A stretch of 64,000 nt of DNA from an uncultured bacterium (GTDB taxonomy: Bacteria; Edwardsbacteria; AC1; EtOH8): NCBI GenBank assembly GCA_937863685.1, contig CALMGM010000005.1, positions 62,001-126,000 on the forward strand, in the 5' to 3' direction. Below, one piece after another: positions 13,971-34,275 of this stretch. A program made the position numbers and the translations under genes. Below the pieces are notes generated by a model. That model worked only from the letters and a program-made list of their open reading frames with translations. It was not told the DNA's origin and ran no database searches. Each line of letters begins with the position of its first letter. The stretch's first letter is position 1.

Positions 13971-15764
13971 TTAAAATGATGTCTTAAATAGTTTTCCACT
14001 ATCGTCTTTATCGTGTAACTCCAGAATAATATCATCTTTGCTGAATTCTATTGGATTGCCGTTCTCATCTCTTGGCAAATCATCCTTGATGATACTAAGA
14101 ATATATTGAATATTATACTTGTCGCAATATATTCTCAATAACTTCAACAATTTTACCCTAATCTTATTCTCTTGATTTGAAAACACATCGTCATGGTAAA
14201 CAAATTTAAAATAGGATTCATTTGAGTATTCGGCTAATATTGCTAAATCAAAAACAACACAAAGCATTTTTTTATAAGTATGGCCTTCGCCTTTTCTTGT
14301 GTCACCAATCTTATAACTATATTCAACGTTATTGTTTTTATTTTTATGAATGGATATTATTGCTGGATAATTCAGCACTGACATTGCAAATTCTGAAAAA
14401 TAATTTCTAATGTTTATATAGCGGGTATTACTTTTCGTGTTGTCAATAATCGTCGTTAATTTTTGCACAGTTAATTTTAATTCGTCGTCTAATCTATCTA
14501 TTTCAGATTTCTTTATCTCAATAACTTTAATGGAATCCAATTGTGCTTCAAGCCTTGCTATTTCGTTTTCAAGTTTAATTAGGTCGTTTTGATATTCTTT
14601 TAATTTTTTTATGATTGTATTGTCTTGTAAGACATCCCTGTATTTTTCTTTTTCTTTGTTTAAATCTAACAGTGTTACTTTTACATCCCTTAGGGCAGCC
14701 ACTTTACTTGTCAGTGCTTCCTTTAAAAGGTCTTTACGTTCAATTGTAATCTGTTTGTTAAATTCAATTAACTCTTCGTATGATTTTGTTAATTGGTCAG
14801 GAAAATAAATCTTTGTTTCATTAAATATTTCTTTAATTGACTCTAAATCAAAGCTAAATTCACTTTTAAGTGAATCATTTATTTTTTTTATTTCAAATTG
14901 CAAGTTGTAGGATAGCTTGTTCAATTCACTTATCCTTGTTTCTATGTCATCAACCAACTCAACAATTAACTTGTCATCCTGATTGTAAAAGTTTAAACTA
15001 TCAAGTTCTTGAATCTTTTCTTTCTTTGACTTATTGAGAACTTGAATAAATCCTTCAACCTCATCCTTTTGACTTGATTGAATATTGAATCCTTCTTCCT
15101 GTTCCTTAATGACTTTGATTTTTTGAGTTATCTCATCTTCAACTCTATACTTTTCAGCAACAGAGTTTTTGTCGAACCCCAATAATGAGAACATAAACGT
15201 TTTCCATTTTTTCTCATCAAAAGTAAATTTTTTAAGCTTAAATAAATCAGCATAATCATCATCGTCTGGGACTCGAAGGGAATAATTAACTGTGTCTCTA
15301 TAATCTAAATCATTATTGTTTTTAAAAAAATCATAATCTAAGTATGTATTTAGTAATTCTATAGCTTTATCAATTCCAACATTTTCCCAATCCCAAGTTT
15401 CGGGGATATTAAAGTCATCTACACTGTCTTTTGAAAGCTTTAGAGATACTTTTGAACTATCCGCAACCGTCCTTTTTATTGTTAGATAGGAGCCAGAATT
15501 AAGCAGTATTTCTAAATAGAATTCATATCCGTTGAATTTTAATGTGCCTGTTTCAATATCTTTTGTTGATGTGAGGAAGTGTTGTTTAGGTAGTATCTTT
15601 TTAAGCAGCAAAAAGTCTAACAACCTTATAAACTTTGTTTTACCGATGGAATGAGAGCTGTTGGGGCTTGACTTCGCTTTGACATCAGCAATAATCACGT
15701 TTAAGCCAAGGTTAAACTTGGTGTTGTGAAATGCTTTATTGCTATACAACTTGCTAAGTTTCAT
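13971..15764 (-). CDS. ABC-three-component system ATPase, DUF2326-like
   Basis: 597 aa SMC/Rad50-like ABC ATPase. Unlike textbook ABC proteins, the N-terminal P-loop region is degenerate (SSHSIGKTKFIRLLDFLL, about 38-55). A coiled-coil middle (about 200-440) is followed by DUF2326-like C-terminal motifs: GEGHTYKKMLCVVFDLAIL (signature region) and FKFVYHDDVFSNQENKIR (Walker B and beyond). This is the ATPase of ABC-three-component (ABC-3C) conflict systems predicted by comparative genomics, in which the ATPase senses invading nucleic acid or protein and licenses an effector. It is the last gene of the operon, 1 nt after the middle component, and strongly AT-rich. Confidence 0.82.
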   Translation of the reverse strand: MKLSKLYSNKAFHNTKFNLGLNVIIADVKAKSSPNSSHSIGKTKFIRLLDFLLLKKILPKQHFLTSTKDIETGTLKFNGYEFYLEILLNSGSYLTIKRTVADSSKVSLKLSKDSVDDFNIPETWDWENVGIDKAIELLNTYLDYDFFKNNNDLDYRDTVNYSLRVPDDDDYADLFKLKKFTFDEKKWKTFMFSLLGFDKNSVAEKYRVEDEITQKIKVIKEQEEGFNIQSSQKDEVEGFIQVLNKSKKEKIQELDSLNFYNQDDKLIVELVDDIETRISELNKLSYNLQFEIKKINDSLKSEFSFDLESIKEIFNETKIYFPDQLTKSYEELIEFNKQITIERKDLLKEALTSKVAALRDVKVTLLDLNKEKEKYRDVLQDNTIIKKLKEYQNDLIKLENEIARLEAQLDSIKVIEIKKSEIDRLDDELKLTVQKLTTIIDNTKSNTRYINIRNYFSEFAMSVLNYPAIISIHKNKNNNVEYSYKIGDTRKGEGHTYKKMLCVVFDLAILAEYSNESYFKFVYHDDVFSNQENKIRVKLLKLLRIYCDKYNIQYILSIIKDDLPRDENGNPIEFSKDDIILELHDKDDSGKLFKTSF

Positions 15765-15765
15765 T

Positions 15766-15999
15766 TTATTTAAGCTTAAAAGAATAAAGTATTGAATTGT
15801 ATTCTATTTTATTAAGAAGAAATAGAAAATTTAAAGCATGCGGAAATATATCTTTCGATTCTGCACCAAGCAACTTACAGGTTTCTATTTCAAGTTCATC
15901 ATATGACAGTATATTTATACGTTGCAATATACGTATAATAGTGGCACTCACATTAATTACAGAATGCTTTAAATCAAAGTATTTATCTGGAGTTATCAT
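15766..15999 (-). CDS. ABC-three-component system middle component (MC6-like)
   Basis: 77 aa, MITPDKYFDLKHSVINVSAT..., a small helical protein with the DIFPHALNFLFLLNKIEY pattern typical of ABC-3C middle components, probably the type-6 group. Its ATG overlaps the stop of the SMEK gene by 4 bp and its stop lies 1 nt before the ATPase start, so all three are co-translated. Middle components are thought to bridge ATPase and effector. Its identity rests on size, helical pattern and position. Confidence 0.8.
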   Translation of the reverse strand: MITPDKYFDLKHSVINVSATIIRILQRINILSYDELEIETCKLLGAESKDIFPHALNFLFLLNKIEYNSILYSFKLK

Positions 16000-16967
16000 T
16001 TTTTGTTTTCCCCGATGTCACACTGAAAATACATAAAGTGCAGTAAGATTCGAAGTGCCCTGCGGTCTGAGACTAATTCTGGGTTTTTAACGTTACAGGT
16101 ATCTTCTATCGCTTCAAAAATATCATCAAACAGGGCATAATTTTTCCTATTTGTTAATATTTCTTTTTGCAAATCAGCTGTTATGTTGTAATATATATTT
16201 TTCAAATCTTTGTTTTCAAATGATTCTAAAAATACTCTGAATTGTTCAAAAAATGGTAATGATTGTTGTTGAATTAGTTTAATGTATCCTTCACTAAGAT
16301 TATTGATTTTATTCTTTAGCGGGAAATCAGTTCTGTGAATATCTTTTATTCTTTTTGATATACTTCCAATTAAACTCGGATTTTTAGTTAAAAATCCATT
16401 AAGCAACTTTGCAATATCCTGTGGTGTAATGTCATCTATAAGTTTCCCTTTTAATTTGGAAACATGGCTCTCTAATATTGACAAGATTTCCTCTTGTATA
16501 TTTATGGGAAGTCCCTTAATCTGTGCCAATAAGTCTTCAAAGTCAATTATATGTTTGCTTTTATCGAAAGTATATTTCCCCTCTGTATCAAATATTGCGG
16601 TGTAATCTTTTTTCCTGGTTGTTATTAGAAAGTAATGAATGGGATAGGTTTCGTAAACTTTGTGTTTAATGTTTATCCCTATTTTCTCCTTGATATATGT
16701 TGATGTGTCTGTTGCGGTTACAGACACGCCAATCCCTTTGGCAGTATCGCCCAAATCAATTGCTGGGTAATTAGTGTGCGAGGTATTGAGATTTTTCAGA
16801 TTCCATCCATACACTTTATTCAATATTAAGACGCATAATTCTTCGTTAGTGTTGTTAACATCGTTCAGACGAGCCGCCGAACTTAACTCGGTATAAACCC
16901 GCCAATGGGTAAGTTGATTTAAGATTTTATGGATTATTTCAAGGTTCTGCATTTTTTGCAAACTCAC
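15996..16967 (-). CDS. SMEK-domain ABC-three-component system effector
   Basis: 323 aa from a GTG at 16965-16967; an ATG five codons on is an alternative. Residues 10-160 match the SMEK domain: LNDVNNTNEELCVLILNKVY, then NTSHTNYPAIDLGDTAKGIG, VSVTATDTSTYIKEKI and HYFLITTRKK, a PD-(D/E)XK-like arrangement with AIDLGD as a candidate acidic site. The C-terminus (SDRRALRILLHFMYFQCDIG) is the ABC-3C C-terminal helical module. It would be the first gene and the effector of this predicted anti-phage system. Nuclease activity is inferred from the fold family. Confidence 0.8.
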   Translation of the reverse strand: MSLQKMQNLEIIHKILNQLTHWRVYTELSSAARLNDVNNTNEELCVLILNKVYGWNLKNLNTSHTNYPAIDLGDTAKGIGVSVTATDTSTYIKEKIGINIKHKVYETYPIHYFLITTRKKDYTAIFDTEGKYTFDKSKHIIDFEDLLAQIKGLPINIQEEILSILESHVSKLKGKLIDDITPQDIAKLLNGFLTKNPSLIGSISKRIKDIHRTDFPLKNKINNLSEGYIKLIQQQSLPFFEQFRVFLESFENKDLKNIYYNITADLQKEILTNRKNYALFDDIFEAIEDTCNVKNPELVSDRRALRILLHFMYFQCDIGENKK

Positions 16968-21714: not shown

Positions 21715-22101
21715 ATGAATCCTGTTATTCAGTTTGAGAAATCAGAAGAATCCTACGAAGCTTCTGAATTATGCAATAAACATAAAAAATATTCAAGCAG
21801 TATAAATAGAATATACTATTCGCTGCTTCAATATATAAAAGGCGTGCTCCTTTTTGCGGGTAAAGATTTGAGTTCGTTGGCAGGACAGAATTCCCACGAT
21901 AAAATACGAACTGCGGGCATGGGATATGTTCTGGAGAAAAATCTTTTAAAGAATGCGTATTCCTTTGTGTGTGACTTTGATTCGCTGCGTAATCTACGTG
22001 TAAAGGCCGATTACGAATGCATACATATGGACGATACGGATTATAGTTTTGCCCAACTAACGTATGAAAAAATGAAGGGATATTTCAAATATGTGCCTTG
22101 A
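21715..22101 (+). CDS. HEPN-domain protein, putative toxin of a tripartite cassette
   Basis: 128 aa alpha-helical protein with the HEPN pattern SSINRIYYSLLQYIKGVLLF (about 28-47), a central SHDKI segment and LRNLRVKADYECIHMDD (about 96-112), the RxxADY hallmark of the family. Many HEPN proteins are RNases; the exact RxxxxH catalytic spacing is not clear here, so activity is uncertain. It is the first of three AT-rich genes: its end overlaps the next start by 11 bp. Partners at 22091 and 22564 suggest a toxin-antitoxin-chaperone arrangement. Confidence 0.75.
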   Translation: MNPVIQFEKSEESYEASELCNKHKKYSSSINRIYYSLLQYIKGVLLFAGKDLSSLAGQNSHDKIRTAGMGYVLEKNLLKNAYSFVCDFDSLRNLRVKADYECIHMDDTDYSFAQLTYEKMKGYFKYVP

Positions 22102-22561
22102 CATAAATCAAGAATTGAAGAAGATTAAGAAATCCATAAAGGACAACTTTTCTATTGACTCAGTTATCGTTTTCAATGAACATGATAACACCCATTCAGT
22201 TGTCATATCACGACCAGAGGTTTATTTGTCAGAGCGTTTTCGTGATTTTGCTTCTGAGGCGATAGGTTCATTGTGGGAAAGAGGCGTGCATAACTCTTCT
22301 ATCATTTGTGAGCCAGGATTAAATATTTGCCAAGAATTTAATTTCAATGAAGCTATTGTTGAATTATTAACTGGTTATACTATGCATTCCAAACAAAACG
22401 GTTGGCAGCCTGTAGGTGTTACATCAATAGTCAGCCTAACAAAGATTAACACTTATGGAATAAGTAGTATTAACTCATCTCCACTTGAACTTTATGCAAT
22501 ACCAAAGGATACTTCTCTGGAAAACAATATATTTTCAATGTCCTATTGTAAGGCCGCATAA
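22091..22561 (+). CDS. Hypothetical protein, middle gene of the HEPN/SecB-like cassette
   Basis: 156 aa, starting at an ATG inside the 3' end of the HEPN gene. Visible features: a short N-terminal helix (NQELKKIKKSIKDNF), a strand-rich core with DSVIVFNEHDNTHSVVISRP, and no signal peptide. It lacks the GSxARGxxxSDxDL motif of MNT nucleotidyltransferases that often pair with HEPN toxins. By position and translational overlap it is the best candidate for the antitoxin or adaptor that a SecB-like chaperone would hold, but nothing in the sequence proves this. Confidence 0.65.
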   Translation: MCLDINQELKKIKKSIKDNFSIDSVIVFNEHDNTHSVVISRPEVYLSERFRDFASEAIGSLWERGVHNSSIICEPGLNICQEFNFNEAIVELLTGYTMHSKQNGWQPVGVTSIVSLTKINTYGISSINSSPLELYAIPKDTSLENNIFSMSYCKAA

Positions 22562-22563
22562 CA

Positions 22564-22983
22564 ATGGATGAGACAAAACAGCCAGGCATTAAATGTAATG
22601 CCATTATTCTCAAACGCAGCGCATTTGAAAGACAACCTATAATTTCATTAAAACCTATTGTGCGTTCAGAGTTTTCTCTTGATGTTGCGATAGGGGATGA
22701 TAATAAAAAATCTTCCGTCGTGGTCGGGTGCATTATTAAATTTCTGAACGAGAAGGAAGAGGTTTTCGCACAAGCAGAAGTAGAATATCTTGGTTTATTT
22801 GAGGTTGATGGGCAATCCGAAAACATGGATATATCCCAATTTTCGAACAATAGCGCACCAGCAATTATTTTTCCATACGTGCGCAATTATATCCATAATT
22901 TAACACTTCTCTCTGGAATTTCACAAGTGATAATACCGCCTGTAAATATCCAAGCAGCAATACAAAAAGTGCTAAAGAAATAA
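22564..22983 (+). CDS. SecB-like chaperone
   Basis: 139 aa, 2 nt after the middle gene. The C-terminal half has the SecB signature NNSAPAIIFPYVRNYIHNLT followed by LLSGISQVIIPPVNI (about residues 92-130), and the N-terminal half has the expected strands (FSLDVAIGD, SSVVVGCIIKF, AEVEYLGLFEV). Canonical SecB guides exported proteins to SecA; short SecB-like proteins next to toxin-antitoxin pairs act instead as antitoxin-dedicated chaperones (TAC systems). The neighbours here are a HEPN protein and an unknown protein, which favours the second role. Confidence 0.75.
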   Translation: MDETKQPGIKCNAIILKRSAFERQPIISLKPIVRSEFSLDVAIGDDNKKSSVVVGCIIKFLNEKEEVFAQAEVEYLGLFEVDGQSENMDISQFSNNSAPAIIFPYVRNYIHNLTLLSGISQVIIPPVNIQAAIQKVLKK

Positions 22984-22989
22984 ATACAT

Positions 22990-23025
22990 AAAAACCCCCC
23001 AGTAAATAAATACTGGGGGGTTTTT
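22990..23025 (+). terminator. Strong intrinsic terminator
   Basis: AAAAACCCCCCAGTA and TACTGGGGGGTTTTT arms (perfect 15 bp) around AATAAA. It closes the HEPN/SecB-like operon. Confidence 0.95.
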
Positions 23026-23059
23026 ACTATGCAACTTTTTTAAATATATCCTACAGATT

Positions 23060-23428
23060 TATGCATTGGTAGGTTGGCCAGCCGGGGAATAACCTTCAGC
23101 GACAGTATCATAAGGTATGGGCTCGGCAAGGCGGCTGGTCAGCCCGTTGATAAAAATCCGGGATTCGGGTAGCGTTCATGCTTTCTAAGCTGCCTTAGGG
23201 CTTGACAGTTCCATATATGGCTTCTTTGTCAGGGCTTTAACATGGTTCGTTTAAACTCTTCGGATTGGTTGATTACCTCGTCAAGGGATTCTAAAGAATG
23301 GTAATAAATACTACATTCTACGGACATTAGCCAGTTGCAAATGTCGTCCACTTCAGCCAGCCAGTACACGAAGTCCGACAAATATATCTATCTCAAAAGG
23401 ACCCTATAGTTAAGCTATAGGGTCCTTT
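23060..23428 (+). repeat. Diverged long member of the intergenic element family, with terminator
   Basis: No gene is seen between 22984 and 23452. The 5' part has GGGGAATAACCTT, and the 3' part has GACATT...AATGTC (a hairpin where the other copies have the T-arm-like sequence), CGTCCACTTCAGCCAGCCA and a GTAC...GTCCGAC tail, in the same order as in 32301-32450. The middle is about 170 nt longer than in the other copies. It ends with the terminator AAAGGACCCTATAG...CTATAGGGTCCTTT (23396-23428). Kinship is by short blocks only. Confidence 0.45.
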
Positions 23429-23452
23429 AATTATGTTACTTATGAAAAATAA

Positions 23453-24817
23453 TTAAAAGCTATATTCAACCTTCAAACACGCTTCGTTGTTGTCTTTTAC
23501 CCTGCCGAAAGTGGTTGTGTTTTTGCCCTCAAATATGCGCAAACCCAAAGTGATTTCAGCATTATCAACGGGTTTATAGGATATCTCCGGCGTGTAGATA
23601 ACAGCATAGTTGTTCTTGATATCATTTGTATTCTTTATCTCTACACCCCCTCCAATAGGCGCAATTTTCAATTTCTCCTCAAGGAATTTCCGTTCCATGC
23701 GGAACATAAAATAATCTTCCAGGTTTTCCTTGCCTCTTTCGTGAATAAAGCCATGAAGATACTGCCCGTTGACATAGATCCCGTTCTTGAAAGTATAATC
23801 CCCACCCACAACGTATTTGGCGTAAGGCTCATCGTCTAATACCGTCATTTCCTGAATTCCCAAACCAAAGGCAGACAGATCCGTCACCATTGTTGCTCTG
23901 TCAGGAAATACTACGGCGGCTTCGGCCCAAATCCCAACATTGGCGACCGTTCCAGCCAAGTCGGCTCCTACAATGCGCCTGCGCGGGTACATAAGTTCGC
24001 TGGTGATGTCGACTTCGCCTGATGCCCCAGCCGGTACAAGGGATATCTCACTAGCTATAGGCAAGTCATCCCGTCCATAGATATAACTTAAGGAGAGATC
24101 ATAACCTAAAAGATTTTTGGACATTTGCAGGCCGGCGGTCGAACTTTCTTCAGGATTATTTCTGGGAAGCGAGACGATGTCGGTCCGTGATTTTAATATC
24201 ATACCAGCGGGAAGTTCCATGGACGGCGACAATACCGAAGCCCAATCACCCCGTGGAAGTACCGCTGGTGTAAACAAAGGTATATAAACTGCCGTCAAAG
24301 TATAGTCTCCGAGATAATAAGAAGCCTTCAAGCCCTCGGACCCCAAATGTCTTCCAAAATCCCAAATCTCCTCAAGGTCCTTGGGATTGAGGTTATCTGT
24401 TTGATTTAACTTATCGGCTGTTCCCCATGCGATGCGCTGTTTTCCTATACGCAAATCCAGTTTCTCAAACAGAAACCCATAAAAATCAACATACGCCTCT
24501 TTAAGTTCAATATTTCCTGGGGAAACCTTGTCTTTGTCCGTCAGGTCAGTAGTATTCATCACATTGCTCCCACCCCAGGTCCGCACCCACAATTCACCAT
24601 AAAAATGGCTTTTCGTTGTCGGTTTGACCTCCGCTTTTAGAACCCAACGGTATTCCTGCCAGGAATAATTATTTCTTCCTTTCAAGCGAAGACACTCATT
24701 CGCCTGTAAATACCCGCCCCAACTGATTCCATTATCCGTCGGGATACTATCCTGGGCCAGGACCGGACACACAGATATGGCCCAAAGAACGGATATTGTC
24801 AATATAAGTCTTTTCAT
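23453..24817 (-). CDS. Outer-membrane beta-barrel protein, DUF1302-like
   Basis: 454 aa. Signal peptide MKRLILTISVLWAISVCPVLAQ (split here only by length), then alternating amphipathic strands typical of a barrel: ISWGGYLQANECLRLKG, FEKLDLRIGKQRIAWGTADK, LGSEGLKASYYLGDYTLTAV and a terminal aromatic KVEYSF. The RIGKQRIAWG motif is characteristic of DUF1302/alginate-export-like barrels. It is the last gene of the envelope operon, directly after a LolA-like protein and an RND pump, so a role as the outer-membrane exit or receptor of that system is inferred. Confidence 0.85.
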   Translation of the reverse strand: MKRLILTISVLWAISVCPVLAQDSIPTDNGISWGGYLQANECLRLKGRNNYSWQEYRWVLKAEVKPTTKSHFYGELWVRTWGGSNVMNTTDLTDKDKVSPGNIELKEAYVDFYGFLFEKLDLRIGKQRIAWGTADKLNQTDNLNPKDLEEIWDFGRHLGSEGLKASYYLGDYTLTAVYIPLFTPAVLPRGDWASVLSPSMELPAGMILKSRTDIVSLPRNNPEESSTAGLQMSKNLLGYDLSLSYIYGRDDLPIASEISLVPAGASGEVDITSELMYPRRRIVGADLAGTVANVGIWAEAAVVFPDRATMVTDLSAFGLGIQEMTVLDDEPYAKYVVGGDYTFKNGIYVNGQYLHGFIHERGKENLEDYFMFRMERKFLEEKLKIAPIGGGVEIKNTNDIKNNYAVIYTPEISYKPVDNAEITLGLRIFEGKNTTTFGRVKDNNEACLKVEYSF

Positions 24818-24833
24818 GTTTTGTTTACCTCGT

Positions 24834-25589
24834 TCAGCGTGTCAAAAATCGTTCTGTAAACTTGTCATCGGGAATGCCCGAATCAAGTTTCATATCCGTC
24901 ATTATCATACGGGTTTTATGCTTTGTTTTCAGGTCCTCCATCTGCGATTCCGTACACACCCAGTAGCCGCTTATCTGTTCGATGCCGTCACGGGTCATGA
25001 TTTTACATAATTTCCCGCTCTTGTTGTAATGCTCAATCCGTTCGGGATAAAAGTTATCGGCCCGGACGGTCATAACCAATTTGGAATAATCAGACAACCC
25101 GGCGGCCTTGGGCGAAAGCTGCAGGACATATTTATTGTTTTCCGATCTTGCCAGGTCAGGCACCCATTTGTCAGCGTAGCGTATAGCTTCCATATCCTCA
25201 TAGGTGAAATCAGTCCCGGCAAAGTTGGTATTCTTTACGTGAGATGCGATACGTCTTGTTTTTTTGAAGGCCGGCAGGTAAAGGTACATCATATCGTTTG
25301 GCAAGGAAAGGAAAGCAATTCCCTTCTGATCGGCGGGGGAAAGGAATTTCACTACTCTTTTGTCACTGCCATTTTGAAGCATGGACATTTCACGCTCTTT
25401 TTCATTCCCCTTGCTGTCGATCAGTACCAACTTGACCTTGTAATCCTGATCCTTGGGAGCATTGATCACATCATCGACCTTATTTAGGATCAACACTGGA
25501 TTATTCAGAGGCTGGGCTTGAGTCAGGCATTGAGTAAAAATAACGATCGCGCTCAATGCCAAAAGAAACCGGGTATTAGTGATCTTCAT
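24834..25589 (-). CDS. LolA-like outer-membrane lipoprotein-sorting protein
   Basis: 251 aa. A signal peptide (LLALSAIVIFTQCLTQAQPL) precedes a domain of the COG2834 LolA/LppX-like type, with KVKLVLIDSKGNEKEREMSM, KRVVKFLSPADQKGIAFLSL, MYLYLPAFKKTRRIASHVKN and GTDFTYEDME motifs. Such proteins hold hydrophobic lipid moieties in a beta-half-barrel and often sit beside HAE3 RND transporters, as here (67 nt after the pump gene). It would carry a lipid from the pump across the periplasm. Confidence 0.88.
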   Translation of the reverse strand: MKITNTRFLLALSAIVIFTQCLTQAQPLNNPVLILNKVDDVINAPKDQDYKVKLVLIDSKGNEKEREMSMLQNGSDKRVVKFLSPADQKGIAFLSLPNDMMYLYLPAFKKTRRIASHVKNTNFAGTDFTYEDMEAIRYADKWVPDLARSENNKYVLQLSPKAAGLSDYSKLVMTVRADNFYPERIEHYNKSGKLCKIMTRDGIEQISGYWVCTESQMEDLKTKHKTRMIMTDMKLDSGIPDDKFTERFLTR

Positions 25590-25656
25590 TTTAATTTTCC
25601 TTTATATTTTATTTATGGTTGATTTATGGTGTCTACTATTCGGGTCTATTTATTCA

Positions 25657-27954
25657 TTATTCCTCCTTAAGAAATACAAATTTGAATTTTTCCTTTTCAT
25701 TTGCACTGCCGTTTCCTTTAGGTTTGCCCATGAATCCAGCTTTGGTCAACAGAATTAACGCCGGCAGGAATGTAACCGCCCCGATACCGCTGCTAATCAT
25801 GGTAACAGCCACCAGTATTCCGAACCTCTGCAAGGGAACGATGCTGCACAGAATAAGCGCCAGAAAGCCCAAAGCAACCGTCATCATATTGATGATAATG
25901 GCCCGGCCGGTTGTTTCTAGGGTTTTATCCAAAGCCTCCAGCGTAGTAGCCGAGCTATGGTAAAATGACTTAAACCTAACACTGAAATGGATCGAATAAT
26001 CAATACCGATCCCCATTGCAATACTGGAAACAAGTACTGTGGCGACATCCAGCGGAATATGGGCAAATCCCATGACCCCAAAGGCCATCATAACCGCAAA
26101 AACAATAGGTGCCAATCCTATAAGTCCGCCGACGAAAGATCGCAATTGGAACGCCAGGAGAATGAATATTAATATTAAAGCATAGGCGAATGATTCGATC
26201 TGGCTGGACATGATGCTTTCATCCAAATGCTGGTAGATAAGCGGAAAACCGGTTTGAACAAATTTGCCGTGATTAGAATCTATTTTATTAATATATGTCT
26301 CTACCGCTTTGACCAGTTCCGGCATCCTTTCAGAATTAGTGACCGTTGCCTGGATGATCGCTTCCGTCTTATCATCATTCACCAGCTGGCGCACTTCATC
26401 CTGCCCATCCAACAAAAACCAAAGATTGGCCACTTTATCTTTATTGTCGGGTATTTTCTTACCCTCGCCCATGACATCGCTCATTTCCTCGATCAGGTCA
26501 GCCACTGATTGGGGGTTGGTGGCATCCCCCTGCGATTCCAAATAATCTTCCAGCTTTATCATTTCATTCAAAACCACCGGATCCTGAATATCGCCTTGTA
26601 CCACGATTTGAATGGGCATGGACCCGCCGAATTTACTTTTCATCATCTTCTCAGTCAACCGAATCGGGCTGTTTGGCTTGAAGAAATCCATAAGATCGGC
26701 TTTCCTTTTGATTTGGGGAATGCCCAGCGCGCCGACAACCATCAATACCAGGCAAACGATTATGATTGCTTTTTCATGTTTTAATACATTTAACCCAAGC
26801 CAATCCATAAGCTTAACGATTGCTGGTTTGCCTGTTTTTTCACGTCTGACATCTCGAATCTTGATAAATGACAATATCGCGGGGATAACCGATACTGATA
26901 TGATAAGGGAGAATAATACACCCAATGCGGAAAACAAACCAAATTCCCTGATCATAGTAAGATAAGAGCCGAAAATGAACGAAGTAAAGCCGAAAATGAT
27001 AGTAGCCGCGGCCAGGATCACTCGCAAACCCACCTCTGAAAAGGCAGATTTAGTTTCGGCACCGGTGTTTCCGTATCTGGTATGATCTTCGTCGTACTTG
27101 CTGATGATATGTATGGCCGATGCGCTACCCACAGCTACTAGGATGACCGGGATAAGGTCTGAAACCACCGTCAAGGGTATTTTTAGAATGCTCATGCAAC
27201 CCATGGTCCAAATGGTGCTGATTAAAACAGAAAGCATTGGCAGCACTACCCCACGGATGCTGAGGAAGCTTAAGGCGAGGGCCCCAGCGATCAACAGCAC
27301 AACCAGGGGAATCAGCGTTTTAAGGTCTTGTACAATAAGATCCTGCAAATCCAATAACTGAAAGGGCAGGCCCCCATAATATACCTTCTCCTGTAATTCG
27401 GCGCTCTGGGTTATCTCTCTCAACTGGCGTGTTGTTTTGACCCTGTCAACATCATCATTCAACCGGCAGACCAGAACAGTGGCTTGCCCATCCTTGGAAA
27501 CCAACCGCCCCCGGTACATTTCCTTGGAAAGAGTATATTTCTTAAGATGCTCAAGCTCTTCTGCTGTTTCCGGCAATTTATACTCGTCAATTAACCGGCC
27601 AATCTCCAAACCATCATCTGTTTTCTTGATATCAAGAACATTGGTCAAGCTGGTTACATACGAGACCCCTTCCACACCCTTGAATTTGGCGGTAAGATTA
27701 TTGATATTGGCTATGGTTTCTTTCTTAAATATATCGTCCGACTCCAATACGATAATAGCCATTTGATTTCCGCCGTATTCTTCACCGATATAATTGAACA
27801 ACTGAACCGCCGGATCACTCTTAGGCAGTGAACTTATAACATCGGCGTTGATTTTCAGATCCTTGATGAAATAGCCCAATATCAAAGTGATCAGAATCGT
27901 TGCAATAATGATGGGCATCCTGAACTTGAAAACAAAATCCGTGAATTTCTTCAT
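25657..27954 (-). CDS. HAE3/MMPL-like RND transporter
   Basis: 765 aa with twelve predicted membrane helices in two six-helix halves (one after residue 10, five near 205-365, one near 395, five near 600-750) and two large periplasmic loops (SSLPKSDPAVQLFNYIGEEY opens the first; SPIRLTEKMMKSKFGGSMPI opens the second). SVIPAILSF and MGIGIDYSIHFSVRFKSF are RND/MMPL hallmarks, the latter with the conserved Asp-Tyr. This family moves lipids such as hopanoids or mycolate-type molecules. It has AAAGGAG before the ATG and lies between fabH and the LolA-like gene, pointing to lipid export. Confidence 0.9.
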   Translation of the reverse strand: MKKFTDFVFKFRMPIIIATILITLILGYFIKDLKINADVISSLPKSDPAVQLFNYIGEEYGGNQMAIIVLESDDIFKKETIANINNLTAKFKGVEGVSYVTSLTNVLDIKKTDDGLEIGRLIDEYKLPETAEELEHLKKYTLSKEMYRGRLVSKDGQATVLVCRLNDDVDRVKTTRQLREITQSAELQEKVYYGGLPFQLLDLQDLIVQDLKTLIPLVVLLIAGALALSFLSIRGVVLPMLSVLISTIWTMGCMSILKIPLTVVSDLIPVILVAVGSASAIHIISKYDEDHTRYGNTGAETKSAFSEVGLRVILAAATIIFGFTSFIFGSYLTMIREFGLFSALGVLFSLIISVSVIPAILSFIKIRDVRREKTGKPAIVKLMDWLGLNVLKHEKAIIIVCLVLMVVGALGIPQIKRKADLMDFFKPNSPIRLTEKMMKSKFGGSMPIQIVVQGDIQDPVVLNEMIKLEDYLESQGDATNPQSVADLIEEMSDVMGEGKKIPDNKDKVANLWFLLDGQDEVRQLVNDDKTEAIIQATVTNSERMPELVKAVETYINKIDSNHGKFVQTGFPLIYQHLDESIMSSQIESFAYALILIFILLAFQLRSFVGGLIGLAPIVFAVMMAFGVMGFAHIPLDVATVLVSSIAMGIGIDYSIHFSVRFKSFYHSSATTLEALDKTLETTGRAIIINMMTVALGFLALILCSIVPLQRFGILVAVTMISSGIGAVTFLPALILLTKAGFMGKPKGNGSANEKEKFKFVFLKEE

Positions 27955-28017
27955 TCCTTGTCTCCTTTATTTGTTTTAATTTACCAGCCTATATTATCTA
28001 AACATTTAGAGATATTA

Positions 28018-29001
28018 CTACCATTTGATTACGCATGTTCCCCAGGTAAATCCCGCACCAAAACCAGTCAATAAGACAATGTCATCCCTTTTAAGCATCC
28101 CAGCTTCTTCTGCTTCAACCAAGGCAATGGGAATAGAGGCAGCAGACGTGTTGCCATATTTAGAAATATTGACATACACGTTAGACAGGGGATATTTCAG
28201 TCTCTCGGCCAAACCTTCAAGAATGCGGATATTAGCTTGGTGGGGAATAAGTATATCTATATCCCGTGGTGATAACCCGATTTTATTTAAAGCGATTATT
28301 GTCGATTCGGCCATCGCTTTGGCGGCATATTTATAGATTTCTTTGCCGTTCATCTGCAGGAAATGCAATCGTTGATCTATTGTTTCATGACTGGCCGGTA
28401 ATAGTGAACCCCCGGCGGTCATTTTTAATAAATCACACCCTGATCCATCCGTTCCTAAATGAACAGAAATAATTTCCCGCTCCTTCGCTCCCGCTTGCAG
28501 AACAACCGCACCGGCACCATCTCCAAATAGAACACAGGTGTTTCTATCCTTCCAATCAAGAATTCGAGACATTTCTTCCGCGCCAATTACCAAAGCTGTT
28601 CTATACGTACCGTTTTGCAGATATTGTTGGGCGACAGATACTCCGTATATAAAACCGGAACAGGCTGCGCTGAGGTCGAACGCCACAGCCTTCGACAGCC
28701 CCAGCTTTTTCTGAATGATGCAGGCGGTTGCGGGAAATGGCATGTCGGGTGTCATGGTGGCAACGATAACCAGATCAATTTCACCCGCCTCTATGCCCGA
28801 ATCCAGAAGGGCTTTTTGGCCAGCGGCTACCGCCAAATCAGAAGTCACCTGGTTGTTGGCGGCGATTCTCCGCTCACGTATTCCCGTTCTGCTCCATATC
28901 CACTCATCGGTTGTATCAAGCATGTTTTCCAAATCAATATTCGATACAATCCTTTCCGGCACATAATATCCGGACCCTATAATGCCGACCGCTTGATGCA
29001 T
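28018..29001 (-). CDS. fabH: Beta-ketoacyl-ACP synthase III (FabH-like)
   Basis: 327 aa thiolase-fold condensing enzyme. Catalytic triad: Cys114 in SAACSGF, His in IPHQANIRI (about 252) and Asn in KYGNTSAASIP (about 282). MHQAVGIIGSGYYVPERIVS is the usual N-terminus. AGGAGGGG lies right before the ATG. FabH starts fatty-acid chains from acyl-CoA and malonyl-ACP, but its place inside a TetR-MCE-PAP2-RND operon rather than a fab cluster suggests a dedicated lipid such as an alkyl head group or specialised acyl chain. Gene symbol by family. Confidence 0.9.
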   Translation of the reverse strand: MHQAVGIIGSGYYVPERIVSNIDLENMLDTTDEWIWSRTGIRERRIAANNQVTSDLAVAAGQKALLDSGIEAGEIDLVIVATMTPDMPFPATACIIQKKLGLSKAVAFDLSAACSGFIYGVSVAQQYLQNGTYRTALVIGAEEMSRILDWKDRNTCVLFGDGAGAVVLQAGAKEREIISVHLGTDGSGCDLLKMTAGGSLLPASHETIDQRLHFLQMNGKEIYKYAAKAMAESTIIALNKIGLSPRDIDILIPHQANIRILEGLAERLKYPLSNVYVNISKYGNTSAASIPIALVEAEEAGMLKRDDIVLLTGFGAGFTWGTCVIKW

Positions 29002-29097
29002 TCCCCTCCTTGCTTTTCAATTAATTATGACTTTAGCAAATCTGTCTAAACCATTACTTTGTCAGATATTGGTACCATCTGGCTTGGTTTTCTTTAT

Positions 29098-29307
29098 TCA
29101 ATTCGTTCCACGTTTCCTGCGTTTTAGGACCGCAACCCGACAATTCTCCGTCTGCCCCACTCCGCAAGTAAAACAACGCCAGAGGATCTGTTGGGTTCCA
29201 TTTGCTGGATGCCTCCACACCTCTTCTATTTTAAGAATTGTCCCACATACAGAGCAGCGTTTTTCTTGGGACCTACAACAAATATTCCTTTTGGTGGTTT
29301 CATTCAT
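29098..29307 (-). CDS. Small zinc-ribbon protein
   Basis: 69 aa, MNETTKRNICCRSQEKRCSV..., with two CxxC knuckles (CSVCG and CFTCG, about residues 18 and 45) spaced like a zinc ribbon and a basic tail (VLKRRKRGTN). AAGGGGG lies about 14 nt upstream, a little far. It fills most of the gap between PAP2 and fabH in the same direction, which supports reality, but a small frame like this could be chance. Confidence 0.5.
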   Translation of the reverse strand: MNETTKRNICCRSQEKRCSVCGTILKIEEVWRHPANGTQQILWRCFTCGVGQTENCRVAVLKRRKRGTN

Positions 29308-29420
29308 TATTAATCATATCCCCCTTATAAGTTGAAATTACAATAACATTAAGGAGCCATATTTTCTCAAGAAGTTTTGAAATATTTATCTGATTTATTT
29401 TGGGGCAACACCCAATCCTA

Positions 29421-30308
29421 CTATATGATTGGACATTCATCTCGTTGCCACCATTTGTTCCAACATACAGATAAATACATAGCCAACCAGCCATGAATAA
29501 ATCCTCCCAGGATATCCGCCATATAATGATACCCGCCATAAAGAGTGGAAAGGAGAAGTAATACGGTGGAAATCATAAACGGCAAGAACCACCCCTTTGC
29601 ATGATGCCTGACAAAAAGGCAAATGATAAGGGACGCAGCAGCATGCCCGGAAGGGAACGAACCACCGCAATAAGAGCTTTTTGAAATAAACATATTGATT
29701 TGAGCAGTTAACCATCCGCCATTAAGCACAAGATCAGGGCAGGTCACAAAACGCGGACTATGCGCCGGAAACAACATGGAAAGTATATATGTGCCATAAA
29801 GCGCCATGACAATGCTTAACCTTAGGTCAGCAAAATCCCGAAAATAGTGCTTTTTATAAAAAATATAACTGCTGCCCAATATCATAATGAAAAATAAACA
29901 ATAAGACACCTGCATTAAGTCTGTAAACCACCATGAGGATAACCTTTGCAATATAACAACAGACTCACTCCCCAACAATAAACAATCAAACTGGTTAAGC
30001 AACAAATCAATTTCCCACGGAAATATCACATGAATAAAATCACCAGACCATCGATAAGCCAAGGGAAGGGTTAATATGGGGTACCAATCTGAAATAAAAA
30101 TCGTAAGCGACGAGGAATGGTCCGCAACGGCTCCTTGTATCAAAATTATTATTGCTATTACTATAATATGTCTCATGACCACCGTTTGCATAACGGAGAC
30201 TTCACTAAAATATAGCGCAGCCACAATAACCATCAAAATGTTATAAACTATTATGAAAAGATCAATCGGACGCAGAATGTTTTTATCTTTGTTCATAATG
30301 CACCACAT
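29421..30308 (-). CDS. PAP2-family lipid phosphatase
   Basis: 295 aa integral membrane protein with about six helices. The PAP2 signature is visible as the SGH motif GGSFPSGHAAASLIICLFVR (about 218-237), and YGGYHYMADILGGFIHGWLA (about 257-276) holds the H-x3-D motif. The first KxxxxxxRP motif is not clear. Members remove phosphate from phosphatidate or isoprenyl-pyrophosphate lipids at the outer face of the membrane. It starts 8 nt after the MCE gene; an internal ATG four codons on is equally possible. It lies in the lipid operon. Confidence 0.88.
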   Translation of the reverse strand: MWCIMNKDKNILRPIDLFIIVYNILMVIVAALYFSEVSVMQTVVMRHIIVIAIIILIQGAVADHSSSLTIFISDWYPILTLPLAYRWSGDFIHVIFPWEIDLLLNQFDCLLLGSESVVILQRLSSWWFTDLMQVSYCLFFIMILGSSYIFYKKHYFRDFADLRLSIVMALYGTYILSMLFPAHSPRFVTCPDLVLNGGWLTAQINMFISKSSYCGGSFPSGHAAASLIICLFVRHHAKGWFLPFMISTVLLLLSTLYGGYHYMADILGGFIHGWLAMYLSVCWNKWWQRDECPII

Positions 30309-30316
30309 CCCGTTTT

Positions 30317-31258
30317 TTATTGGACATTCTTATTGATATCAGATATCAAATTATCCAATTTACTTAAAGCAGCGGCAAAATCATTATAAAGATTGTCTTC
30401 CTTGGATATTGTCCCAAAAAATCCTTGTCCTTTTTCCAATTGAGTTGATGTTGAATCAATCATTTTCAGGGTACCAGTAAAAGCCCTATATGATTCCGAA
30501 GAACACACTGCGTTCCCGGCCCTACCTTGACCTTCTAAAACAGAGGCAACAAACATCCCTGCGCGTTGTGCGCCCTGGTTTATGTTGTCGTACAAAAAAG
30601 GGTTATGGCAAAGAAATCCAATCGTACCTTTACTTTCCTTTATATCTTCTATCATAGTGGTTGTAGTTGCCAGTAATGAATCCAGGTCCGTAGACATTCT
30701 AGGATCGTTTAATATTTTGCCCAAGCTTCCCGTTCCGTTTTCAACCTTTTTCACAATAACATTGAGCGACATCGCTGATAAATATAAATTATCAGAAATT
30801 TCATTAATGCAGTTCAATATCTCTTCGGGGGGCATTATGTTTACCGTGGCAATGGTTTCACCATTTTGGAGAACCGGCTGATCACCCACCCCTGGGACAA
30901 TCTCTACAAACTTGTCACCCAAAAGTCCCGCATTTTTAATCGTGGCTGTCGATCCTATTCTGATTCCCCTCTGGGCCCGTTTCTCGATCTTTAATTTTAC
31001 CAGTATCGTTATGTCACCTTCTTGTATCTTATCAACCACACCAATACGATAACCGGCAATATTGACAGGTGCACCTGGCTGAAGCCCTGTTATATTCTTA
31101 AATGATGCTGACAAATAAAAATGCTCTTTCATTAATCCCTGGCGTTCACCTACAGATATTACCGCAAATACAGCAACGGCAACGCCAAACAATATCAATG
31201 AACAAACCCTGAATACATGGGATTTTAGTATTTTTAATGTAACAGGCATTTTTATCAA
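30317..31258 (-). CDS. MCE/MlaD-family lipid-binding protein
   Basis: 313 aa: one N-terminal membrane anchor (about 15-35) then an MCE domain (about 40-125) with SASFKNITGLQPGAPVNIAG, YRIGVVDKIQEG and GSTATIKNAGLLGDKFVEIV, all typical of MlaD/Mce proteins. The C-terminal half is helical, as in Mce tunnels. MCE proteins form hexameric rings that pass phospholipids between membranes. No MlaE permease or MlaF ATPase is present in the operon; the RND pump may drive transport instead, or the partners lie elsewhere. Confidence 0.9.
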   Translation of the reverse strand: MIKMPVTLKILKSHVFRVCSLILFGVAVAVFAVISVGERQGLMKEHFYLSASFKNITGLQPGAPVNIAGYRIGVVDKIQEGDITILVKLKIEKRAQRGIRIGSTATIKNAGLLGDKFVEIVPGVGDQPVLQNGETIATVNIMPPEEILNCINEISDNLYLSAMSLNVIVKKVENGTGSLGKILNDPRMSTDLDSLLATTTTMIEDIKESKGTIGFLCHNPFLYDNINQGAQRAGMFVASVLEGQGRAGNAVCSSESYRAFTGTLKMIDSTSTQLEKGQGFFGTISKEDNLYNDFAAALSKLDNLISDINKNVQ

Positions 31259-31325
31259 TATGCAATTATTTTAAATGCAACGTTCGACCAAAATGGTTTT
31301 TTGTTCGATAGCTTGGTAAAAAAAT

Positions 31326-32063
31326 TTACCTTGTCTCAATTCCGTAAAAAAGAATCTCCAATAGATTGGCTATATGCTCTTTTATTTCATTGCTGTCTTT
31401 TTCTGTGAGCCACGAGTATTCCAACCCCTTTAAGGCAGTAAAAATTGCAAATGCAGTAACATCCAAATTTTTAATCGTAAATATACCAATATCTACCCCT
31501 TCCTTTAATATACTCTTAATAATGCTCTTTTCCGTATCATCTTGTTTTTTCCGGATCTTTTCGATAAAGCTATAGTTTTCAAGATAATCGTCTTTCAAAG
31601 CACCATAGTAATTAATCAGACTTTGTAGTGTTTGCATTCTGGTTATTACATAGGCATTGATTTTGGTCTGTGGTGTATCTGCAACTCTGACTGCATTCAT
31701 TATTTCTTGATTCAATTGTACGCTTTCTTTTTCCAATATCTCTCGAAATATATCCTCTTTACTGTCAAAGTAATGATAGATCGAACTTTTGGCCTTATGT
31801 GCTGCTTTTGCAATTTCATCTATTGTGGCCTTTTTAAAACCATAACGAGCAAATATATGCTGTGCCGCTAGCATTATTAATTCTTTAGGATCAATTGCTG
31901 ATTCCGACATGAAATCTCCTTTCTCTTGTCTGACTCGGTAAGAATTAACTCCAATCTCTTTACCACACCAACCGCAAGTTACTTTTGTAAGCTTTGGTTT
32001 ACTTGTAATTGAATTAGTACGCTTACATGAAGGGCAAGACCATTCATAAATAAAACAAGTCAT
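31326..32063 (-). CDS. TetR-family regulator with N-terminal zinc ribbon
   Basis: 245 aa from the ATG at 32063. Residues 1-50 contain CPSC and CGWC knuckles spaced as a zinc ribbon; residues 57-110 are a TetR helix-turn-helix (KELIMLAAQHIFARYGFKKA, IDEIAKAAHKAKSSIYHYFD); the rest is the ligand-binding helical domain. An internal ATG at about 31910 (MSESAIDPKE) has an excellent AAAGGAG, so a ribbon-free form could also be made. It heads the lipid operon and probably autoregulates at 32125-32152. Confidence 0.85.
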   Translation of the reverse strand: MTCFIYEWSCPSCKRTNSITSKPKLTKVTCGWCGKEIGVNSYRVRQEKGDFMSESAIDPKELIMLAAQHIFARYGFKKATIDEIAKAAHKAKSSIYHYFDSKEDIFREILEKESVQLNQEIMNAVRVADTPQTKINAYVITRMQTLQSLINYYGALKDDYLENYSFIEKIRKKQDDTEKSIIKSILKEGVDIGIFTIKNLDVTAFAIFTALKGLEYSWLTEKDSNEIKEHIANLLEILFYGIETR

Positions 32064-32124
32064 AATTCATTATATTTACCAATTTCAAAGCTATAAAACC
32101 AATAGAACAAATCAGTCTTATGGT

Positions 32125-32152
32125 ATTATACACTAAAATTATTAAATGTCAA
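32125..32152 (-). promoter_or_regulatory. Promoter of the TetR-headed envelope operon
   Basis: TTGACA (32147-32152), 16-nt spacer, TATAAT (32125-32130) on the minus strand: both hexamers are consensus. All eight genes to 23453 run leftward from here without a clear internal terminator. Confidence 0.85.
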
Positions 32153-32271
32153 GTCCTTTGAAAATAATTTTTATTGTTGGCTAAAAGAGTTTTATTCAGA
32201 GACTATTGCCAATGGAGAAGAAGTTCCATATATAAGCGACTAAACATATGCCTTTTGTAAAAAAGCATACA

Positions 32272-32484
32272 ACAGCCCCACCTTGGTTAAGAGATGGGGC
32301 TGTGAGAACTGGTGTGGGGATAACTATTGTTCTATTAATTGAATAATGCTCCGTTGCCGAAGGTCTGGAATGTAGATGAAGCCCTGGTATTTACATATGA
32401 CGGTTCGAACATCCTCCACTATCCCCAGCCAGTATACTAGGTACGAACCTAATAAAAGAGGCAACCGCTATGGTTGCCTCTTTT
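32272..32484 (+). repeat. Intergenic structured element, copy A
   Basis: Parts in order: hairpin ACAGCCCC...GGGGCTGT (32272-32303), a core of about 130 nt (32301-32431) with GAGAACTGGTGTGGGGATAA, CCGTTGCCGAAGGTCTGGAA and GACGGTTCGAACATCC, an end stem TGGGGATA (32315-32322) with TATCCCCA (32420-32427), then terminator AAAAGAGGCAACC...GGTTGCCTCTTTT (32454-32484). The core is shared with 40308-40439 and 50272-50403. It lies between the divergent TetR operon and kdp, so it is not a plain 3' untranslated region. No coding frame is seen in 32064-32586. Confidence 0.8.
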
Positions 32485-32514
32485 GTTATTGCATAAAAAG
32501 ATGATGTATATCTT

Positions 32515-32531
32515 TTAACACTATTTTAATG
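32515..32531 (+). promoter_or_regulatory. Possible response-regulator direct repeat before kdpA
   Basis: TTAACA (32515-32520) and TTAATG (32526-32531) repeat with the 11-bp period of OmpR/PhoB-family sites, 56 nt before the kdpA start. It is a candidate KdpE or PhoB-like site; only two units are present, so support is weak. Confidence 0.3.
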
Positions 32532-32586
32532 TCTTTATACCCCTATTTAACTTGACCAAACGGATGTTTAGCCGGATAATGATGTC

Positions 32587-34275
32587 ATGAAAACGAACGA
32601 CTGGGTTTATTTTATTACATACGGCGCAACTCTCACATTGCTGGCGCCGGTACTCGGCTACTGGATGGCCAAGGTACTCAACGGGCAGCCCGGGTTTCTT
32701 GGCCGTATCTTGAGTCCTCTGGAAAAGAGCATTTACCGTTTGACCGGGATCCAGCCGGACAAGGAAATGCACTGGAGGACATATCTGCTTTCTCTGCTGG
32801 CCTTCAATGGTCTGGGATTCCTCTTTGTCTTCCTTCTGCAGATCACCCAAAGGCACCTGCCGTTGAACCCTCAGCATTTGCCCAATGTTCCCGGATGGTT
32901 GGCCTTCAATACCGCTGTCAGTTTCACGACCAATACTAACTGGCAGGCGTATTCGGGCGAAACGACCCTGAGTTATCTGGTGCAAATGGCCGGATTGGAA
33001 GTGCAGAACTTCCTAAGCGCCGCCACCGGCATTGCCGTGATGCTGGCCCTGGCCCGGTCATTGATAAGACACTCATCCGAAGTAATAGGTAATTTCTGGG
33101 CTGACGTGACCAGGACGACCTTGTATGTCCTGCTGCCGATGTCCCTGCTCCTGTCCCTGGTCCTGGTCCAGCAAGGTGCAGTGCAGTCTTTCCGCCCCAA
33201 TGCAGTTGCCAGAACCATCGATGGATCGGAGCAAGTCATTCCACTGGGGCCGGTGGCCTCGCAAGTGGCAATCAAACAATTGGGCACCAATGGCGGTGGG
33301 TATTTCGGGACCAACAGCGCACATCCTTTCGAGAATCCCACCCCATTGACGAACTTCCTGGAGATGCTGGCCATCATGCTGCTGCCAGCGGCCCTGATAT
33401 TTACCTTCGGGAAAATGATAGGCAATAAAAAGCATGCCTGGATGATATACGGCGTGATGATGTTGATGCTGCTGGCCGGAATAACTGCTGCCTACTGGGC
33501 GGACTGGCGGATGGAAATGCAACTGCCCGGGATAGCTATGGAAGGCCGGGAATACAGGTTCGACAGAGCCAGCAGCGTGCTGTGGAGCGTGCTGACCACG
33601 GCCGTTTCCAACGGGTCGGTCAATGCCATGCACGGAAGCATGGCTCCGGTCACCGGGCTGGTGCAGCTGTTCAACATGATGATCGGCGAAGTGATTTTCG
33701 GCGGCGTGGGATGCGGCATGTACGGCATGATGTTGTACATTCTGCTGACGGTCTTCATCGCCGGATTGATGGTAGGCCGCACTCCCGAATATCTGGGCAA
33801 GCGGATCGACCGTTATACCATTGTCTGGGCCAGCATCGGCCTGCTGTTGCCCTCGGCGGTGATCCTGGAAGGCACGGCACTTTCCTGCCTTTCGCCCGCC
33901 GCTTTGGCTTCCCACCTGAACCACGGGCCGCGGGGTTTCAGTGAGATTCTCTACGCATGGACCTCCTCCTCCGCCAACAACGGAAGCGCCATGGCGGGGA
34001 TCAATGCCGCTACAAACTTCTACGCCATCGGTCTTGGTATGGCGATGTTGCTGGGGAGATTCGGGGTGATCGTGCCTGTACTGGCCATTGCCGGCCACCT
34101 GGCCCAAGGAAAATCGATCCCGCCGTCGGCCGGCACCCTGCCCACCGATTCACTGACCTTTTCCCTGGTGCTGACGGCTGTCATCATGATAGTGGGCGGC
34201 CTGACCTTCTTTCCCGCCCTATCGCTGGGCCCATTGATCGAACACCTGCTACTGGCAACCGGGCGGTTGTTCTAA
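32587..34275 (+). CDS. kdpA: Potassium-transporting ATPase, K+ channel-like subunit KdpA
   Basis: 562 aa, about ten membrane helices, the ion-selecting subunit of the high-affinity KdpFABC pump. Selectivity-filter-like loops are visible: NTNWQAYSGETTLSYL (about 115-130), KQLGTNGGGYFGTNSAHPFE (about 225-245), VSNGSVNAMHGSMAP (about 340) and SSANNGSAMAGINAAT (about 460), each with the conserved Gly. No kdpF is seen upstream. kdpB starts 9 nt after the stop. Promoter control is presumably through KdpDE, encoded downstream. Confidence 0.97.
   Translation: MKTNDWVYFITYGATLTLLAPVLGYWMAKVLNGQPGFLGRILSPLEKSIYRLTGIQPDKEMHWRTYLLSLLAFNGLGFLFVFLLQITQRHLPLNPQHLPNVPGWLAFNTAVSFTTNTNWQAYSGETTLSYLVQMAGLEVQNFLSAATGIAVMLALARSLIRHSSEVIGNFWADVTRTTLYVLLPMSLLLSLVLVQQGAVQSFRPNAVARTIDGSEQVIPLGPVASQVAIKQLGTNGGGYFGTNSAHPFENPTPLTNFLEMLAIMLLPAALIFTFGKMIGNKKHAWMIYGVMMLMLLAGITAAYWADWRMEMQLPGIAMEGREYRFDRASSVLWSVLTTAVSNGSVNAMHGSMAPVTGLVQLFNMMIGEVIFGGVGCGMYGMMLYILLTVFIAGLMVGRTPEYLGKRIDRYTIVWASIGLLLPSAVILEGTALSCLSPAALASHLNHGPRGFSEILYAWTSSSANNGSAMAGINAATNFYAIGLGMAMLLGRFGVIVPVLAIAGHLAQGKSIPPSAGTLPTDSLTFSLVLTAVIMIVGGLTFFPALSLGPLIEHLLLATGRLF

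Follow-up and report, generated by a model that had tools for sequence, protein, structure and literature searches.

The window analysed here is a stretch of 64,000 nucleotides from an uncultured bacterium of the Edwardsbacteria (GenBank assembly GCA_937863685.1, contig CALMGM010000005.1, positions 62,001 to 126,000), and our subject is an eight-gene operon within it in which an MCE protein is encoded beside an RND permease. Eight intact open reading frames (ORFs) lie on the minus strand within 23453-32063. Read leftward, they encode a TetR regulator (31326..32063; PF00440, TetR_N, 51.6 bits), an MlaD-like MCE protein of 313 residues (30317..31258; PF02470, MlaD/MCE, 61.9 bits), a membrane protein of the PAP2_3-type lipid phosphatases/phosphotransferases (29421..30308; PF14378, 53.7 bits), a cysteine-rich ribbon protein of 69 residues (29098..29307; no Pfam match above cut-off), a FabH or beta-ketoacyl-ACP synthase III (28018..29001; TIGR00747, 419.6 bits, cut-off 292.1), a HAE3/MMPL-like RND permease of 765 residues (25657..27954; PF03176, 185.7 bits), a LolA-like periplasmic protein (24834..25589; PF17131, 178.4 bits, cut-off 30) and a DUF1302 outer-membrane beta-barrel (23453..24817; PF06980, 26.7 bits, cut-off 23.2). 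Every product but the ribbon protein has Pfam matches above curated cut-offs, those of FabH being ACP_syn_III (115.7 bits) and its C-terminal domain (115.5 bits). The gene content and leftward order proposed earlier by a model working from the letters and their ORFs (the sequence-only reading) are thereby upheld, as is its remark that the operon is free of MlaEF, since the ORF list and the Pfam scan give neither MlaE nor MlaF within it. No operon protein has a Pfam match to a PqiA/LetA-like inner-membrane partner, the search for one being confined to the operon.

The genes are separated by 8 to 113 bases, the shortest gap being that between MCE and PAP2. A sigma-70-like promoter, TTGACA-16-TATAAT, lies upstream on the minus strand (32125..32152), matches at 12/12 positions and is the sole 12/12 site listed in 23000-32700, promoter-like sites overall not being enriched relative to shuffles (31 vs 26.0, standard deviation 5.8). 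Its first base, 32152, is the end of the stretch named in the sequence-only reading. Spacing, promoter and common strand suggest a single transcript. A near-symmetric hairpin 3' of the last gene (23396..23428) is a possible terminator, with a terminator score for the plus strand only. The MCE gene starts with TTG or with an ATG at 31249, and its product comprises an N-terminal membrane helix, as judged from sequence, one MCE domain and a long C-terminal part.

The exporter half of the operon is a local copy of a widespread cassette. When an alignment of the LolA-like protein was searched against the named genomes it returned at least 578 relatives; the 80 best form the set analysed here (L078-L157), and their hosts include Aminicenantes, Spirochaetales, Cloacimonadota, Kryptonium, KSB1, Latescibacterota and Bacteroidota, among others. 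RND, LolA and DUF1302 genes occur together on one strand at 59 of these 80 loci, and with a TetR gene as well at 41, which, like all cassette and lipid-gene counts over the 80 loci, are lower bounds obtained by tblastn, many contigs ending inside the cassette. The corresponding four genes of the window stand on one strand in the same order, with best identities to cassette proteins of 57% (TetR), 57% (RND), 64% (LolA) and 62% (DUF1302). The TetR belongs to the cassette, as it is 57% identical to that of L078 vs only 26% to the TetR of the genome's own Mla operon (C9, described below). Upstream TetR genes are found at 46 loci, where they are separated from the RND gene by less than 400 bases in 39 cases, by 652 in one and by 2.1-4.7 kb in six, a sign that inserts, made up of other genes, occur at this spot elsewhere as well. 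In the window the gap is ∼3.4 kb. From the conserved order and the identities it follows that MCE, PAP2, ribbon and FabH genes have been placed into a TetR-RND-LolA-DUF1302 cassette. Apart from the related AmeABCD system, the open-licence literature searched yielded no description of this cassette.

The window TetR shares 45-57% identity with the TetR of ten cassettes, aligned from residue 37-63 onward, and its likely start is an internal ATG near 31910 that follows AAAGGAG (MSESAID...). Ahead of it, in frame, lies a ribbon-like stretch of 51 residues (31911-32063, minus strand) with CPSC and CGWC motifs, which scores 22.2 bits against Zn_ribbon_SprT, below the cut-off of 28.1; no such motif occurs in the displayed stretch ahead of TetR in the ten related cassettes.

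The components of the exporter half have structural kin that together point to a path from the inner membrane over a periplasmic carrier to an outer-membrane barrel. The best NCBIfam model for the RND is TIGR00921 (HAE3; 291.2 bits, under the cut-off of 351.9), and its nearest solved relatives by sequence are HpnN (6wu0, the best) and the MmpL proteins. HpnN, a hopanoid transporter, is an HAE3-type RND, a class that the window protein resembles, and the window protein falls below both HpnN models (NF052374, 82.6 of 1100 bits; TIGR03480, 143.7 of 751.85 bits). Profile matches of the LolA-like protein to solved chains of the LolA superfamily include 9tp6, 3bk5, 4z48 and 3buu. The AlphaFold2 model of the DUF1302 protein is a confident barrel (pLDDT 90.1) whose best structural chains are MOMP, the OprD/Occ family and AlgE (Z about 20-23, root-mean-square deviation 3.4-4.9). 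We predict that the RND draws its substrate, an amphiphile and most probably an endogenous membrane lipid or precursor, out of the inner membrane and passes it to the LolA-like carrier, and that the OprD/AlgE-like barrel would receive or release it at the outer membrane. The lipid export route from RND to LolA-like protein to barrel that had been proposed is supported in part: the TetR-linked module is conserved in order, its barrel model is confident, and its setting is lipid-like in part of the copies.

That setting consists, over the 80 loci, of genes for patatin (22), PlsC-type acyltransferases (13), GNAT proteins (7) and serine-palmitoyltransferase-like proteins (3), together with glycosyltransferases (17), SDR proteins (6), KAS III (4) and FabH (2). 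The window FabH and PAP2 fit it. The operon FabH is a second copy in the genome, 51% identical to the other (C8:128454). Serine palmitoyltransferase proved uninformative as a marker of the substrate, two or three relatives being present in all 10 sampled genomes of the phylum and none over the model cut-off. In some Bacteroidota cassettes (L106, L151) the interval from LolA to DUF1302 is occupied by genes for acyltransferase, GNAT, SDR, patatin, KAS III, methyltransferase and glycosyltransferase, most of which are present in L109 too; L106 has a GlsA-type glycine-lipid acyltransferase above its cut-off (266 vs 260 bits).

The closest studied analogue of the exporter half is AmeABCD of Castellaniella defragrans, which according to the portion of the source available to us unites an HAE3 permease, a LolA-superfamily periplasmic protein and a DUF1302 outer-membrane protein in one cassette, classes that have counterparts in the HAE3-like RND, LolA-like protein and barrel of the window (PMC6394551). 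The two differ in that AmeB is a DUF1329 protein and the window LolA-like protein a PF17131 member (the only family at E ≤ 0.001), within a shared superfamily, and in that AmeC (COG4447) is without a counterpart in the window, where every ORF of the operon fits another family or is the 69-residue ribbon. In the same portion no MCE, PAP2 or FabH is named for AmeABCD, and the substrates are monoterpenes (PMC6394551). Deletion of AmeABCD lowers monoterpene tolerance (PMC6394551, as far as the accessible part goes), which favours another reading of the window: an operon for hydrophobe stress, whose TetR would sense a solvent or terpene-like compound, whose RND, LolA-like protein and barrel would export it, and whose MCE, PAP2 and FabH would repair or remodel membranes. 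An MCE chain deposited as a toluene tolerance efflux transporter (6ic4) and the accessory nature of the gene set, present in one of 10 phylum genomes, are consistent with this. The operon, however, holds no degradation genes, and some other copies of the cassette lie near lipid synthesis genes; we regard the stress reading as unlikely, although by no means negligible.

The inserted MCE and PAP2 genes have their nearest kin in the Mla operon of the phylum, for which 10 genomes, all of one family, were sampled. The genome of the window holds three MCE genes and two MlaE genes. At C9 the order is Omp85, TamB, an unassigned ORF, MlaE, MlaF, MCE, PAP2, TetR, TolC, MFP and a 1039-residue AcrB. MlaE, MlaF and MCE are adjacent in 10 of 10 phylum genomes, and TetR comes after them in all nine with sequence there; PAP2 stands between MCE and TetR in two of the nine that cover that stretch (this genome and G004). 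TolC and MFP genes are present in seven of the rows, that of G001 ending inside TolC and that of G009 being without them, and AcrB in seven of the eight genomes with sequence there. The phylum's Mla row thus runs on into TetR, TolC, MFP and an AcrB-type RND, which puts Mla and a tripartite efflux pump into a single row of genes (L008, L291; in this genome C9:205.5-224 kb). The neighborhood resembles that of Veillonella parvula, where the part of the source that was seen describes an MlaEFD operon followed by tolC and tamB and encoding a long MlaD; it retains MlaEF, and no HAE3-LolA-DUF1302 set is named there (PMC10665443).

Identities between the window MCE and the full-length MlaEF-linked MCEs of the phylum run from 42 to 47% (42% for that of C9), compared with at most 35% for any full-length match outside the phylum (61 genomes). 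The window protein scores 76.2 bits against the MlaD model TIGR04430, below the equivalog cut-off of 135, and a tree split at 100/99 places it with the MCEs of the phylum and apart from five that belong to other families. With the PAP2 of C9 the window PAP2 shares 54% identity; it groups with the C9 and G004 proteins at 97/98 and retains its motifs as in its kin. Both in the window and at C9 the order is MCE then PAP2. The simplest origin of the pair would be a copy from the Mla operon of the phylum or of an unsampled near relative. Copying of MCE, PAP2 and TetR from C9 as one block is ruled out, the TetR being that of the cassette.

The operon as a whole was probably acquired. In the nine other phylum genomes there was no match to the RND at E ≤ 1e-60 among the two candidates scored in each, none to the LolA-like protein above 29% identity, no second C9-type MCE and, for the neighboring KdpA, no match at E ≤ 1e-50. 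The guanine-plus-cytosine (GC) content of the operon is 41.9%, compared with 50.3% for the rest of the window and 54.3% for its 33-64 kb part; within the operon the TetR gene lies at 34%, MCE and PAP2 at 39% and the other genes at 44-47%.

How far the window MCE has kept the features of its MlaEF-linked relatives was assessed from the residues that are identical in eight MlaEF-linked MCEs of the phylum, a set that leaves out the C9-128kb and G008 proteins; a single-sequence structural model of the protein was poor (pLDDT 39.4) and was not used. Of these invariants it keeps 10 of 15 in the membrane helix, 34 of 46 in the MCE domain and 51 of 93 in the helical part. Among five MCEs from other families, four of which are encoded next to MlaE and MlaF, the corresponding numbers are 4-9, 25-28 and 26-47, lower than those of the window protein in each segment, although closer kinship alone would also give its higher retention. 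The junction residues SVGERQG of MlaEF-linked kin are retained as well. Helix and junction thus appear to lack the special wear that might be expected had docking on MlaE been given up.

These data also bear on the idea that MCE and PAP2 ride along as passengers, a duplicate of part of an Mla operon that landed in the cassette and is transcribed but has no role in export. The window MCE is confined to one of the 10 phylum genomes and has a diverged C-terminus, and 2.1-4.7 kb separate TetR from RND at six of the 46 other loci, all as would be expected of passengers. Set against this are the intact ORFs, the 34 of 46 MCE-domain invariants retained and the PAP2 motifs kept as in its kin, and we consider the passenger idea improbable.

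An operon without MlaEF does not mean a cell without MlaEF, because two MlaEF pairs are encoded elsewhere in the same genome (C9, C12). The two MlaE genes rule out a genome lacking MlaEF, and the proposal that the RND takes the place of MlaEF for this MCE is not sustained: nothing was found in its favor, and one of the resident pairs, the MlaE-MlaF pair of C12, has no adjoining MCE (L007 5092-6807). A PAP2-MCE pair without MlaEF lies at C9:127-128 kb (L006 5304-6857). A Calditrichaceae contig (L105) carries adjacent MlaE, MlaF and MCE genes that, among the queries, best match the C12 pair and the C9:128 kb MCE, and by this sequence likeness those two may be split partners. Were they so, a C9-type MCE such as that of the window would have its natural partner in the remaining pair, C9. 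The sequence-only reading had named a separate MlaEF pair co-varying with the MCE as an outcome that would speak against it, and no such pair was found. Two MlaE genes occur in nine of the 10 phylum genomes, with one in G007 (88% complete), regardless of the window MCE, which also rules out an MlaEF pair that arrived with it. The retained residues of helix and junction make docking on a resident MlaEF the simpler reading.

To gauge how often an MCE gene accompanies this kind of RND, 80 further regions around RND relatives were taken from 386 sampled genomes. The RND survey scored two candidates per genome, on which both its figure of 77 of 386 genomes and its null result in the nine other phylum genomes rest; its 97 RND places comprise the window, four on contigs already in the set, four second places in regions taken, the 80 newly taken and eight weaker ones left out. 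An MCE profile that had found six of six loci outside its building set, one of them from this phylum, was then applied to 171 loci (11, the 80 of the LolA survey and the 80 new ones), which after merging of duplicates represent 167, of which 154 have an RND. None of the 154 distinct RND-bearing loci, whose flanks extend to about 10 kb at most and are often shorter, contains an MCE. The sole MCE among the scanned loci is that of L105, a 4.1 kb contig with LolA, TetR, MlaE, MlaF and MCE which starts inside LolA, such that any RND would fall outside it. FabH-like genes occur at eight of the 171 loci, in one case 6 kb from the RND, and PAP2 at one (L274), 3.4 kb past DUF1302. There was no second case of the eight-gene arrangement among the loci searched. 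The combination is unusual: the widespread cassette has the same four genes in the same order as the window but no MCE beside them. With regard to synteny, dispersal in relatives is what we observe for MCE and PAP2, the former lying in an MlaEF operon in 10 of 10 phylum genomes, but not for TetR-RND-LolA-DUF1302, which is conserved.

This rarity counts against an MCE ring that does without MlaEF and serves in the inner membrane as an acceptor or channel, which the HAE3 RND would fill or empty, on a path from RND over MCE and LolA-like protein to the barrel. The tight row that joins MCE, PAP2 and RND, with MCE and PAP2 8 bases apart, the lack of an MlaEF pair co-varying with the window MCE and the existence of MCE systems with an ATPase-less inner-membrane partner (PqiAB and LetAB, in the part of PMC12436622 consulted) are on its side. 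Against it stand both resident MlaEF pairs, the helix and SVGERQG junction residues kept from MlaEF-linked kin, the absence of an MCE from all 154 RND-bearing loci and a Pfam scan of the operon proteins that gave no PqiA/LetA-like match. We rate it slightly below the passenger idea. As the Pqi and Let systems are known (PMC12436622, same part), an MCE without MlaEF would not by itself be new. Of similarly low probability is a full chimeric machine, an RND-powered counterpart of Mla whose MCE ring would have parted from its ABC pair and would work with a proton-driven HAE3 RND and a LolA-like shuttle. If it were true, MCE-PAP2 would be a portable lipid-receiving module that has been joined to two RND exporters of the same genome, AcrB-TolC at C9 and HAE3-LolA-DUF1302 here.

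The reading that we favor, and to which we give about an even chance, is an exporter operon for a lipid or lipid precursor whose MCE docks on resident MlaEF. FabH, for the initiation of acyl chains, and an MCE-PAP2 pair akin to the phylum's Mla operon would have been inserted between TetR and RND; once the operon is induced, the MCE would most likely assemble into a ring and dock on one of the resident MlaEF pairs, that of C9 fitting best, while PAP2 would act on phospho-lipids at the inner membrane. Export of lipid and MCE-mediated exchange would thereby be switched on together. The docking step draws on the retained residues described above. Several observations weigh against this reading. 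The studied analogue AmeABCD exports monoterpenes, not lipids, as stated in the part of its description seen (PMC6394551), and lipid genes lie near only a minority of the 80 cassettes. The window MCE sits on a long branch, at a position flagged as unsure by the tree program, and its letter make-up is unusual; KYLxxxxF is missing from its C-terminal end and the repeat pattern is in large part gone, so its partner may have changed or its sequence may be drifting. The FabH tree gave no resolved ancestry. The native C9 PAP2 (44.4%) and TetR (42.2%) genes are low in GC too, which makes GC alone a weak sign of acquisition.

All parts of the operon are of known kinds; it is their combination that is new or unusual. 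The C9 Mla operon, like the window, has MCE then PAP2 near a TetR and an RND exporter with an outer-membrane channel; unlike the window, it has MlaE and MlaF, and its RND is of AcrB type with MFP and TolC and not HAE3-like with LolA-like and DUF1302 proteins. Because the C9 operon ends in TolC, MFP and AcrB, there is a native setting in which MCE-PAP2 has a TetR and an RND exporter for neighbors. The more interesting point, in our view, lies beyond the stretch named in the sequence-only reading: the phylum's MCE row already runs into a TetR and an AcrB-type exporter, with PAP2 after MCE in two genomes, and the MCE-PAP2 pair recurs here beside a different RND, in what looks like a natural module swap between two RND exporters. 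The operon makes it possible to test whether an MCE can switch motors. Lipid delivery to the outer membrane outside the Proteobacteria is largely open, and the TetR-RND-LolA-DUF1302 cassette, present in many phyla, offers a concrete candidate exporter of lipids or hydrophobes.

Direct repeats flanking the operon as ends of a mobile element were considered and rejected: a likeness of 29-35 bases exists at 23338 and 32406, beyond which the sequences by eye diverge, and it occurs at three places in the genome. An imperfect direct repeat of ∼130 bases (by eye), at about 32300-32440 and 40310-40445, brackets a stretch that begins with kdpA. Elsewhere in the window, a minus-strand segment of ∼30% GC (13971-16967) encodes DUF2326 and SMEK_N/CTD12 proteins, an ABC-three-component system by Pfam names, and on the plus strand at 21715-22983 a HEPN-domain ORF, an unassigned ORF and a SecB-like ORF stand in a row, possibly a set of the chaperone-linked toxin-antitoxin type.

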